A DNA stretch of 32,044 bases from the NCBI GenBank assembly GCA_003222385.1, contig QHVV01000111.1, forward strand, positions 35,374 through 67,417, written 5' to 3'. Both the position numbers and the translations under genes were made by a program. Positions within the stretch are counted from its first letter, which is position 1. Each line of letters starts with the position of its first letter. Of the stretch, positions 12,840-16,544 are shown piece after piece. Source of the DNA: Acidobacteriota bacterium. Its GTDB lineage: Bacteria; Acidobacteriota; Thermoanaerobaculia; UBA5066; Gp7-AA6. The notes below the pieces were generated by a model. It was not told the DNA's origin and searched no databases. It worked only from the letters and a program-made list of their open reading frames with translations.

Positions 12840-12914
12840 CGGGGCGTAGCGCAGCGGTAGCGTATCTGCTTTGGGAGCAGATGGTCGCCGGTTCGATCCC
12901 GGCCGCCCCGACCA
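12840..12914 (+). tRNA. tRNA-Pro (TGG)
   Basis: A complete 75-nt tRNA with encoded CCA. The acceptor stem CGGGGCG pairs with CGCCCCG, and A73 plus CCA follow. The anticodon arm is TCTGC / TTTGGGA / GCAGA, giving anticodon TGG at 12872-12874. The T arm reads GCCGG-TTCGATC-CCGGC. Its 3' 34 bases recur exactly at 16511-16544, marking this gene as an integration target. Confidence 0.95.
12881..12914 (+). repeat. att-like direct repeat, left copy (3' end of tRNA-Pro)
   Basis: The last 34 bases of tRNA-Pro, from ATGGTCGCCGG to the terminal ACCA, are perfectly repeated 3,630 bp downstream. Tyrosine recombinases commonly use the T arm and 3' end of tRNA genes as attB; integration leaves an intact gene on one side and such a fragment on the other. 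Confidence 0.85.
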
Positions 12915-12958
12915 CAGAGTCAGTTACTTAGCCAACACCGCAACAGCAGGAAGAGGCG

Positions 12959-13132
12959 TCGGTGCACTCACGGTGCACTCAGCGAGTCGGAATCAGTATC
13001 GCTCCATAGGACTCCGTGATAGGGAAGCGCGCGTGAATCGCTCGTCGTGGAGCGACTTTTCGCGTTGTCGGTAGCAGCCGATAGCGCTAGAGAGGATTCG
13101 GTATGAAAGCTCGTCAAAAGGGCTTTGGGAGA
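12959..13132 (+). repeat. Long direct repeat, left copy (~170 bp)
   Basis: It starts with a tandem pair of GGTGCACTCA units and ends in GGGCTTTGGGA. It aligns over its whole length with 16338-16506: the first 25 and the stretch around CGTTGTCGGTAGCAGCCGAT are nearly identical, with a diverged middle. Near its end both copies can form a hairpin (arms AAAGCTC and GGGCTTT here). The terminal CTTTGGGAG matches the anticodon loop of tRNA-Pro, as though this copy once abutted an att site. Confidence 0.85.
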
Positions 13133-13191
13133 AACGACGCGCGAGTGCAGTCCGAGGCTCTCCTTACCGATTTCATCACGGAGTGGTGCAA

Positions 13192-14607
13192 GTGACAGCG
13201 ACAGATCTCGTCGATCGGCTCGCCGAGCACAAGACCGTCGGCGCGGCGCCGCGCGAGGAGCTCGCGTGGCTGGTCTCACACGGGTCCCTTCGACATCTCA
13301 ACGAGGGAGAGGTTCTGAGCGCGAAAGGCGTGCCGGTGGCGGGCCTCTTCGTCGTGCTGACGGGCCACGTCGCCATTTTTGTCGATCGTGGCGCCGGGCG
13401 GCACAAAGTGATGGAGTGGCGGGCTGGGGACGTCGCGGGTCTGCTCCCCTACTCCCGCCTGGTCAGTCCCCCGGGCGACTCAGTCGCCCAGGAGCCCTCG
13501 GAGATTCTCGCCGTCCCTCGCCGCGACCTCGCCGCGATGATTCGCGACTGTCATGAGATCACGTCGATCCTCGTGCACAAGATGCTCGATCGCGCCCGGC
13601 ACTTCACGTCGAGCGGCCTGCACGACGAGAAGATGCTTTCGCTCGGGAAGTTGTCCGCGGGACTGGCCCACGAGCTGAACAACCCGGCATCCGCGATCGA
13701 ACGCAGCGCGGCGCTGCTCGGGCGCCGACTGGAGGACGCGGAGCAGTCGACACGGGCTCTGGGCGCATCCGGGCTAACTGATCCCCAACTCCTCGCTATC
13801 GATGCGGTGCGCGCGTCCTGCCTCGCCACGCCTGTGCACGGCGTGCTGTCTCCGATCCAGCAGGCCGAACGCGAGGACGCCATCGCCGACTGGCTCGTGG
13901 ATCACGGCGTCGACGCCGCCATTGCTGGACCTCTTGCCGAAACCGCCGTGACGCTCGACGCACTCGATCGGATTGCTGTAGCGGTTAGTGGACCGCCACT
14001 CAGCGCGGTCCTCCGCTCAGTTGCAGCCGGATACTCGGTTCGCGGAATCGCCTCGGAGATTCAGGAAGCCGCGAGGCGGATCTCCGGCCTGGTCACGGCC
14101 ATCAAGGGATTCACGCACATGGACCAGGCAACGGTGGCGGAGCCTGTGGACCTTAAATGGAGCCTCGGCAACACGGTCGCCGTTCTCAAATCAAAGGCGC
14201 GGTCGAAATCGGTCGCCGTCACCGTCAACGTAGAACCCGATCTCCCGCGCGTTCGTGGCTTCGTCGGCGAGCTCAACCAGATCTGGGCGAATTTGATCGA
14301 CAATGCCCTCGACGCCGTTCCCGATTCCGGTCGCGTCGAGGTGACTGCGAACCGAGAGCGGCAGCGCGTGGTGGTACGCGTGGTCGACAATGGGGCAGGC
14401 ATTCCAGCCGAGATCCGCGAGCACCTGTTCGAGCCGTTCTTCACCACCAAGCCGGTCGGGCAAGGCACCGGCCTGGGCCTCGATATCGTCCAGCGCCTGG
14501 TTAGCCACAACGACGCCGAGATCGAGGTCGAGACGGCTCTCGGGCGAACAGAGTTTCGAGTCTCCTTTCCGCTCGCCGAGGTCGATGGAGCCGGGGGACA
14601 ACCGTGA
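13192..14607 (+). CDS. Sensor histidine kinase with N-terminal cyclic-nucleotide-binding domain
   Basis: A 471-residue soluble kinase. Residues 25-115 form a Crp-like cyclic-nucleotide-binding domain (LRHLNEGEVLSAKGVPVAGLFVVLTGHVAIF). The HisKA H-box is LSAGLAHELNNPAS with phospho-acceptor His160. The ATPase domain has the N-box NQIWANLIDNALDAV, G1 VVDNGAGIP, F-box LFEPFFTTKP and G2 GQGTGLGLDIV. No membrane segments are seen, so it senses an internal signal. The start is GTG 13192, 8 nt after GGAG; GTG at 13183 would add three residues. It overlaps the next gene (GTGA), a response regulator fusion that is presumably its phosphotransfer partner. Both lie inside the tRNA-bounded element. Confidence 0.9.
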   Translation: MTATDLVDRLAEHKTVGAAPREELAWLVSHGSLRHLNEGEVLSAKGVPVAGLFVVLTGHVAIFVDRGAGRHKVMEWRAGDVAGLLPYSRLVSPPGDSVAQEPSEILAVPRRDLAAMIRDCHEITSILVHKMLDRARHFTSSGLHDEKMLSLGKLSAGLAHELNNPASAIERSAALLGRRLEDAEQSTRALGASGLTDPQLLAIDAVRASCLATPVHGVLSPIQQAEREDAIADWLVDHGVDAAIAGPLAETAVTLDALDRIAVAVSGPPLSAVLRSVAAGYSVRGIASEIQEAARRISGLVTAIKGFTHMDQATVAEPVDLKWSLGNTVAVLKSKARSKSVAVTVNVEPDLPRVRGFVGELNQIWANLIDNALDAVPDSGRVEVTANRERQRVVVRVVDNGAGIPAEIREHLFEPFFTTKPVGQGTGLGLDIVQRLVSHNDAEIEVETALGRTEFRVSFPLAEVDGAGGQP

Positions 14608-16262
14608 ACAAGCCCGTACTTCTTGTCATTGACGACGATGCGCAGGTGCTCGCGGCGGTGCGCCGCGATCTCCGCGCGCGGTACCGGGAGTCCTATACGG
14701 TCATTAGCGCGTCTTCGGGCGAAGAGGCGCTCGCCACCATCCGCGAACTCAAGGCGCGAGGCGACTCGCTGGCGATTGTGATCAGCGACCAGCGGATGCC
14801 GGGCATGCAGGGGAACGACGTGCTCGCGCAATCCCGCGACGTTTATCCGCTGGCGCGTCGCGTGATGCTCACGGCCTACTCGGACATCGACGCGGCCATC
14901 AAGGCCATCAACGTGGCGCATCTCGATCACTATCTCTCGAAGCCGTGGGATCCACCCGAGGAATACCTGTTCCCGGTGATCGACGATCTGCTCGACGCCT
15001 GGCAGGCCGAGTATCTCCCCGAGGCGAAGGGACTGAGGCTGGTTGGACACCAGTGGTCGCCTCGATCGCACGAGATCAAAGACTTCCTCGCGGGTAATCT
15101 CATCCCATATCGATGGCTCGATGTGGCGCGGAACCCGGACACGCGAAGCCTGCTCGACGCGGCCGGAATTGGCGCCAGCGAGCTTCCCGCGCTGTTCTTC
15201 GAGGATGGGTCCGCGCTGCGGAACCCCGAGCCACGTCAAGTAGCCGAGAGTCTCGGCCGATCGCTTTCGGCCGCCCTCGATCTTTACGACCTTGTGATTG
15301 TGGGCGCCGGTCCCGCCGGCCTCGGGGCAGCGGTGTACGGCGCATCAGAAGGGTTGCGGACCCTGTTGCTCGATCGGCACGCGCCCGGCGGGCAGGCGGG
15401 CAGCAGTTCCAGAATTGAAAATTACCTCGGGTTTCCGGCCGGCGTCAGTGGCAGCGAACTGACGCGGCGCGCCGTGATGCAGGCGCAACGGCTTGGCGCG
15501 GAGTTGCTCGTGCCGCTCGAGGTGACTGGGGTGTCCATCGATGCGGGATACAAGCACCTGACGCTCAGCGATGGCCGAGAGATTGTCACGCGGACCATGC
15601 TGGCCGCGACCGGCATGGAGTACCGCGAGCATCCTGCGCCGGGCGTGGCGGACCATATGGGCGCGGGGGTGTATTACGGGGCGGCTACGACGGAGGCGCC
15701 GGCGTTCAGCGACCGGCGTGTTCTCGTTGTCGGCGGTGGAAACTCGGCGGGACAAGCGGCTATGTATCTGGCGCGCTACGCGAAGGACGTGCAGATCGTG
15801 GTGCGCCGCGAATCCTTTCGCGACACCATGTCGCGGTACCTCATCGAGCAGATCGAAAAGACGCCGAACATACGGCTCAGAGCCCGGACGGAACTCGAAC
15901 GTGTCGAAGGGAACGGCCACGTGGAACGCGTCGCGCTCAAGCTGGACGACGGCGCGAGTCAGGTGGAGGAAATCGACGCGGTGTTCGTGTTCATTGGCAC
16001 CAAGCCGCGAAGCGACTGGCTCCCCGCCGGCGTGTTGCGCGACGCCAGGGGGTTCGTGATCACCGGCAGGGATCTGTCAGTGGACGCCGGGTACGCGCGC
16101 ATCTGGAAGGAGCGCCGCGAGCCGATGACCCTCGAGACCAGCGCGCCCGGAGTGTTCGCGGCTGGCGACATCCGCGCCGGCGCCATGAATCGGGTGGCGT
16201 CAGCCGTGGGCGAGGGATCGATGGTGGTGCGGTTCGTTCACGACTACCTGGCGCTGACCTGA
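14604..16262 (+). CDS. Response regulator fused to thioredoxin-reductase-like FAD oxidoreductase
   Basis: A 552-residue fusion. Residues 4-130 are a receiver domain with Asp62 ([10 protein letters not shown]) as phospho-acceptor, Thr90 (MLTAYSD) and Lys113 (LSKPWD). Residues 143-218 resemble a thioredoxin/glutaredoxin-like fold, but the active-site position reads WSPRS with no cysteines. From 228 a thioredoxin-reductase-like FAD/NAD(P)H domain follows: [10 protein letters not shown] (234-240), [27 protein letters not shown] (NADPH) and FAAGDIRAG (FAD). The redox CxxC expected near 360 is AATT, so classical thioredoxin reduction is unlikely. Such fusions next to cNMP-kinases recur in several soil phyla. 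Start is GTG, overlapping the kinase stop. A hairpin follows at 16284. Confidence 0.92.
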
Positions 16263-16283
16263 ATCGTGGAGCTGCATCGATCA

Positions 16284-16301
16284 GCACCTGGTATCAGGTG
16301 C
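16284..16301 (+). terminator. Hairpin after the redox two-component pair
   Basis: A perfect stem GCACCTG/CAGGTGC with loop GTAT, 22 nt past the stop of the fusion gene. No T-tract follows. It could stop transcription of the two-gene unit or be a protein-binding palindrome of the element. Confidence 0.45.
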
Positions 16302-16337
16302 CGGAACGGCAGAGGCTTCCCGTAGGCTGATTCAGGA

Positions 16338-16506
16338 TCGGTGCACTCACGGTGCACTCAGCGGGTAGGAATCAGTATCGCTCCTTAGCACTCTGTGTAG
16401 AGACGGTGCTGAGAATCGCGCGTGTTGGCGCTGCTTCTTGCGTTGTCGGTAGCAGCCGATTGCGCTAGGTAGGATTCGGTATGAAGCCCGCCAAGAGGGC
16501 TTTGGA
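16338..16506 (+). repeat. Long direct repeat, right copy (~170 bp)
   Basis: It matches 12959-13132 in the same orientation, including the double GGTGCACTCA unit and the conserved GTTGTCGGTAGCAGCCGAT block. Its terminal hairpin has arms AAGCCC and GGGCTT, with sequence changes relative to the left copy that keep pairing. It runs directly into the 34-bp att copy, so this is the true right end of the element. The 363-bp stretch from 16263 to 16625 holds only this repeat, the hairpin and the att copy; no gene is seen. Confidence 0.85.
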
Positions 16507-16510
16507 GCAT

Positions 16511-16544
16511 ATGGTCGCCGGTTCGATCCCGGCCGCCCCGACCA
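16511..16544 (+). repeat. att-like direct repeat, right copy (tRNA-Pro 3' fragment)
   Basis: It is identical over 34 bp to the 3' end of tRNA-Pro at 12881-12914. Upstream bases (TTTGGAGCAT) only partly match the anticodon arm, so the fragment cannot fold as a full tRNA. It is the expected footprint of site-specific integration. Confidence 0.85.

Follow-up and report, generated by a model that had tools for sequence, protein, structure and literature searches.

The window analyzed here, a stretch of 32,044 nucleotides (G000:C56:35374-67417) from a 3.6-Mb draft genome (231 contigs, 95% complete), probably carries an integrated element that has no integrase gene. Judging from its sequence, the element is bounded by an attL site in a tRNA-Pro gene and by an attR site in a displaced copy of the 3' end of that gene, and would have been placed there by a tyrosine integrase that either acted in trans or has since been lost. 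On our best reading, it belongs to a family of tRNA-Pro elements without integrases that is specific to this lineage; its members are moved in trans or have decayed in the manner of cis-mobilizable elements (CIMEs), ICESt1-related islands of Streptococcus that keep their att sites, have no integration or transfer genes and accrete in tandem (PMC5704250).

A displaced copy of the tRNA-Pro 3' end

The putative target of integration is an intact tRNA-Pro(TGG) gene at 12840-12914 on the forward strand (ARAGORN; Rfam RF00005), all 75 nucleotides of which are identical in G001, a member of another genus of the same family. Repeat comparison and a 32-mer search showed that bases 12871-12914 of the gene recur on the same strand at 16501-16544, with 2 mismatches over 44 bp (95%). 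The final 34 bp are exact and the two copies are spaced 3,630 bp apart, as a sequence-only reading of this DNA had stated; an exact repeat of 34 bp is not expected by chance within 32 kb. The matching stretch begins at the anticodon loop and extends to the CCA. Tyrosine integrases leave a duplicated tRNA end that spans this same interval. We take the 3' part of the tRNA from the anticodon loop onwards (12870-12914, forward strand) as the attL core and the displaced end as the attR core. An intact tRNA and a displaced 3' fragment thus lie at opposite ends of the element in the same orientation, the arrangement by which islands are recognized, and the crossover block begins at the anticodon loop in every att copy examined, both in the window and in G001.

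The cargo gene pair and the missing integrase

Only two gene-sized open reading frames lie between the two tRNA ends, both on the forward strand. The first (13183-14607) codes for a histidine kinase of 474 residues with an N-terminal cyclic-nucleotide-binding domain (cNMP_binding, PF00027; HATPase_c, PF02518; a weak HisKA match). The second (14604-16262) codes for a 552-residue fusion of a receiver to a thioredoxin-reductase-like flavoprotein (Response_reg, PF00072; Pyr_redox_2, PF07992; TIGR01292). The open reading frames and the Pfam matches bear out the earlier description of the cargo as a cNMP-kinase and a receiver/oxidoreductase fusion and nothing else. As shown by alignment, the CXXC redox motif of true thioredoxin reductases is absent from the flavoprotein, which has YGAATT where 4gcm has YCAVC. 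The domains suggest that the cargo would act as a two-component switch of the cAMP/redox type. The GC content over the genes is 63-68%, equal to that of the flanks, and for this reason a foreign base composition was rejected; only the regions of the direct repeats R1 and R2, described below, are lower, at about 59-61%.

The closest pairs are found in G004 and G006, which belong to another family (f3), and in G001, with 77-80% protein identity for the fusion; no other homologue in the class exceeds 56%. In these three genomes the pair occupies different genomic places, with no adjoining tRNA and no R repeats. At about 50% identity, members of the fusion family are frequent on large plasmids under the name FAD-dependent oxidoreductase. 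In a tree of the pair, the window copy branches outside G001 and the f3 genomes with weak support (80/81), and at such support a tree-based horizontal origin was rejected. The pair moves around, and its passage through a tRNA site is a single instance of this. Because three relatives carry the pair at non-tRNA sites, this route is not its general means of spread, and the earlier suggestion that the element shows how the pair commonly spreads is unsupported.

We found no integrase gene (PF00589) inside the element or on its contig, C56, in agreement with the sequence-only reading. Matches to PF00589 occur at three places in the genome, on C14, C132 and C48, and the recombinases of the genome are XerC (L001), a probable XerD (L002, on C132) and an integron integrase (L003; TIGR02249) that is split over two frames. 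The matching tyrosine integrase proposed to lie elsewhere in the genome was not among them: no integrase of the tRNA-targeting type, and no helper of the same specificity, was seen in this draft assembly, which at 95% completeness could miss one. The frame-split IntI homologue on C48 (L106, G000:C48, 2246-3147) is a pseudogene or an assembly error. It is 69-74% identical to an intact one in G001 (L086), and homologues are also present in G002, G004 and G006.

A putative arm-site signature shared with a related genome

The left end of the element carries the motif ACTTAGC (12926-12932, forward strand) exactly 26 bp before TCGGTGCACTCACGGTGCACTC (12959-12980, forward strand), a tandem 11-bp repeat (CGGTGCACTCA twice, at 12960-12981) that we presume to be arm-binding sites for an integrase (the P' arm). 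The same architecture was found in G001. There, an intact tRNA-Pro on contig C24 is accompanied by two further copies of its 3' end, at 33946-33990 and at 30725-30771, the latter decayed (86%). The tRNA ends delimit units of about 17 kb and 3.2 kb and one that is open-ended, all without an integrase; C24 has none, and all integrase matches in G001 lie on other contigs. The 3.2-kb unit holds a single gene, for a protein kinase of 901 residues, and the 17-kb unit holds genes for two protein kinases, a sigma factor and others, as well as one for a repetitive protein of 1,993 residues (L025 8-5989; G001:C24 44008-49989).

All four left ends, one in the window and three in G001, share one layout: the tRNA 3' end, 8-12 bp, A(C/G)TTAGC, exactly 26 bp, and TCGGTGCACTCACGGTGCA. 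The form common to the four is A(C/G)TTAGC-26-TCGGTGCACTCACGGTGCAC. Over the 22-bp arm block, their mean pairwise identity is 95%; it drops to 35% across the 26-bp spacer and to 25% in the next 60 bp. Short sites that are kept, at a constant distance, amid DNA that is otherwise unrelated look as the arm-binding sites of one integrase would. As a control, the integrase-bearing islands at tRNA-Pro(GGG) and tRNA-Gly(CCC) in G001 have 12-bp tandem repeats 43-90 bp past the CCA. Outside G000 and G001, the signature was absent from 147 genomes of the class and 394 of the phylum (at most 1 mismatch). An exact 21-mer of the arm had G001 as its sole match in a collection of 84,980 species, and an 18-mer had no match in IMG/VR. 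A search for a helper in viruses, plasmids or phages returned neither the arm signature nor a tRNA-Pro end with arms, and no integrase using these arms, nor any integrase-bearing relative of the element, was found anywhere searched. Since the signature is absent from all other genomes searched, it most likely marks predicted arm-binding sites of one shared integrase. That the same marks and spacing recur at three more integrase-less pieces in G001 suggests that one integrase probably moved unrelated cargo into tRNA-Pro repeatedly.

It also seems possible, with a chance somewhat short of even, that the units are scars of ordinary islands (CIMEs), each of which lost an attL-adjacent integrase by deletion, the arms being remnants of the 3' end of the integrase gene and of the att site, and nothing moving now. 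Single and stacked CIMEs are both well documented (PMC5704250), and ssrA islands without an integration module are known in Dehalococcoides (PMC3146451). Read in the antisense frame, the arms of every one of the four units give CTVSAPT, which resembles the C-terminal tail of a protein, and the integrase at tRNA-Pro(GGG) in G001 ends similarly, in NEHTNEHT; the decay of the third tRNA end in G001 points the same way. However, the integrase is missing from every one of the four units, in two genera, and no integrase fragment was detected on either contig. Moreover, in three units out of four the cargo genes begin no more than about 70-270 bp from the arms, with no sign of a graded deletion.

The direct repeats R1 and R2

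Direct repeats of about 170 bp bracket the gene pair, as noted earlier. The left copy, R1 (12959-13128, forward strand), ends in GGGCTTTGGGAG, a core resembling the anticodon loop, and the right copy, R2 (16338-16505, forward strand), presumably the P arm, runs into the displaced tRNA end. The two are 84% identical over 168-171 bp; each has TCGGTGCACTCACGGTGCACTC at its start and GGGCTTTGG(G) at its end, the latter matching the anticodon loop of the tRNA. The tandem 11-bp repeat of R1 is also found in R2, at 16339-16360; the P arms in G001 do not have it, which counts against the reading preferred here. Neither the tandem repeat nor the shared end had figured in the sequence-only reading. The search for the repeat that had been proposed as a check was productive for part of it only: in 60 other genomes, the 22-bp arm part alone stood out, at the tRNA-Pro copies of G001, and the full repeat was found neither there nor elsewhere in its own genome.

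Divergence between the tRNA ends is far lower than between R1 and R2; at the 16% of the latter, 34 exact bp would have a chance of 0.003. This makes it probable that R1 and R2 had already diverged when they were brought together. One of several accounts of their history suggests that the structure in this genome arose in two stages. The first would have left a unit, small or collapsed, made of the tRNA end, the spacer, R1 and the core; a circle with the pair and R2 would then have inserted at the right junction of that unit, either through the integrase or through recombination within R. The sequence after the R1 core matches the tRNA end in register at 16 of 37 positions (p = 0.03), a score equalled at 5% of random window positions, and for this reason we do not claim a decayed tRNA end there. 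No further tRNA ends scored above shuffles to the right in the window or past the third G001 copy.

Possibly, though we think it improbable, R1, the pair and R2 themselves form the mobile unit, a circle with a single R that inserts, cassette-like and independently of the tRNA, at an existing R-core site. Entry of such a circle at the junction of R1, core and tRNA end would yield exactly the observed structure, with two repeats that share the GGGCTTTGG core end in direct orientation around the pair. This proposal fits poorly with the confinement of R to the two copies described, with the homologues of the pair that have no R elsewhere, and with the weak folding of R in comparison with integron attC sites (z about −1.3 to −1.4). 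An integron cassette reading of R1 and R2 was rejected: the IntI-like gene is frameshifted, R does not fold like attC, no GTTRRRY end could be read in either repeat, and the crossover lies at the anticodon loop of the tRNA.

Unoccupied tRNA-Pro loci

In the f2 family of the order, tRNA-Pro lies near rph and has a single 3' end. Seven order members with tRNA-Pro beside rph each have one tRNA 3' end, with no arm-type tandem repeat at any of these unoccupied loci. In the window, rph is 8.9 kb upstream of tRNA-Pro (3223-12840), as compared with about 0.9 kb in other families of the order. The comparison with relatives that had been proposed as a check gave no strict, syntenic empty site, since neither G001 nor G002 preserves the order of the right-flank genes, which are scattered over contigs in both genomes. 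In G001, the orientation of tRNA-Pro with respect to the esterase is inverted. In G002, a third member of the family, the contig breaks off at base 53 of tRNA-Pro, directly behind the esterase that is also present in the window (L029 end, G002:C109:17642-17694); such a break would be expected if this tRNA, too, had a repeated 3' end. Farther along the window, at about 30546-31385, a protein-kinase-like stretch has many copies in the order genomes searched, on many contigs and at about 70-83% DNA identity.

No relative was found to carry the same pair in the same place without the tRNA fragment. It had also been considered that the second tRNA end could be what is left of another, vertically inherited tRNA gene after decay. 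Tandem duplication of tRNA genes is possible, but the copy has no 5' half and begins only at the anticodon loop, the match stops at the CCA, R2 and arm repeats border it, and the seven order members have a single copy. We regard such an origin as extremely improbable.

Discussion

The sequence marks point to a tyrosine integrase that would cut in the anticodon loop of tRNA-Pro and bind tandem GGTGCACTCAC arm sites, and that would have joined a circle to the tRNA; the tRNA 3' end brought by the element itself would have kept the gene whole. The integrase may have acted in trans, or a parent island may have encoded it and then lost it. Enzymes of the same family probably placed at least three other integrase-less units in tRNA-Pro of G001, where tRNA-end copies, arms and spacing are seen stacked in tandem and where a single integrase was presumably at work. 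The earlier proposal of a satellite moved in trans or the scar of an island holds in that the element is tRNA-targeted and integrase-free; as to the choice it offered, the architecture in G001 fits trans-movement and decay alike.

Judged by its sequence, the element resembles CIMEs in that it occupies a gene's 3' end, retains putative attL and attR sites, has no integration or transfer genes and belongs to an architecture that stacks in tandem. Unlike them, it has no integrase-bearing partner that we could find at the site or elsewhere, and its arm geometry is conserved over two genera with unrelated cargo. The nearest worked precedent is the ssrA islands of Dehalococcoides, which are stacked between copies of an RNA-gene 3' end and often have no recombinase genes (15 were identified without an integration module and 16 with one; PMC3146451). 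In that system, however, the site is the T-loop of ssrA and the serine recombinases DsiB/DsiA are encoded in neighbouring islands, whereas here the site is the anticodon loop of tRNA-Pro and no recombinase is present. The additive flexible genomic islands at tRNA-Lys of 'Ca. Methylopumilus' likewise combine a repeated tRNA 3' end with variable cargo; their repeat is the last 20 bp, and the part of that account on which we draw does not describe an arm-site signature (PMC10872708). Tyrosine-integrase islands of the Islander type with an anticodon-centred attP share the anticodon-loop crossover and the displaced 3' fragment (PMC4383910). Because Islander demands an integrase gene, it would filter out the present units and miss the element. 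Among the known systems compared, we could not match any to units in two genera with a strict arm geometry, all of them integrase-less.

A wider idea, which we hold to be unlikely, is that small, lineage-specific cassettes consisting of an att site and cargo, with no integrase of their own, would be loaded serially into tRNA-Pro by an integrase acting in trans, as a tRNA-anchored counterpart of the integron. What is new here are the G001 units that share the marks of the element, which add the Acidobacteriota to the hosts of integrase-less stacked tRNA elements. Island finders that demand an integrase gene will overlook such units, and the 22-bp arm signature at its fixed spacing offers a means to recognize further ones and the missing integrase. 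If the integrase works in trans, the tRNA-Pro of this family would be a loading dock for signalling genes.
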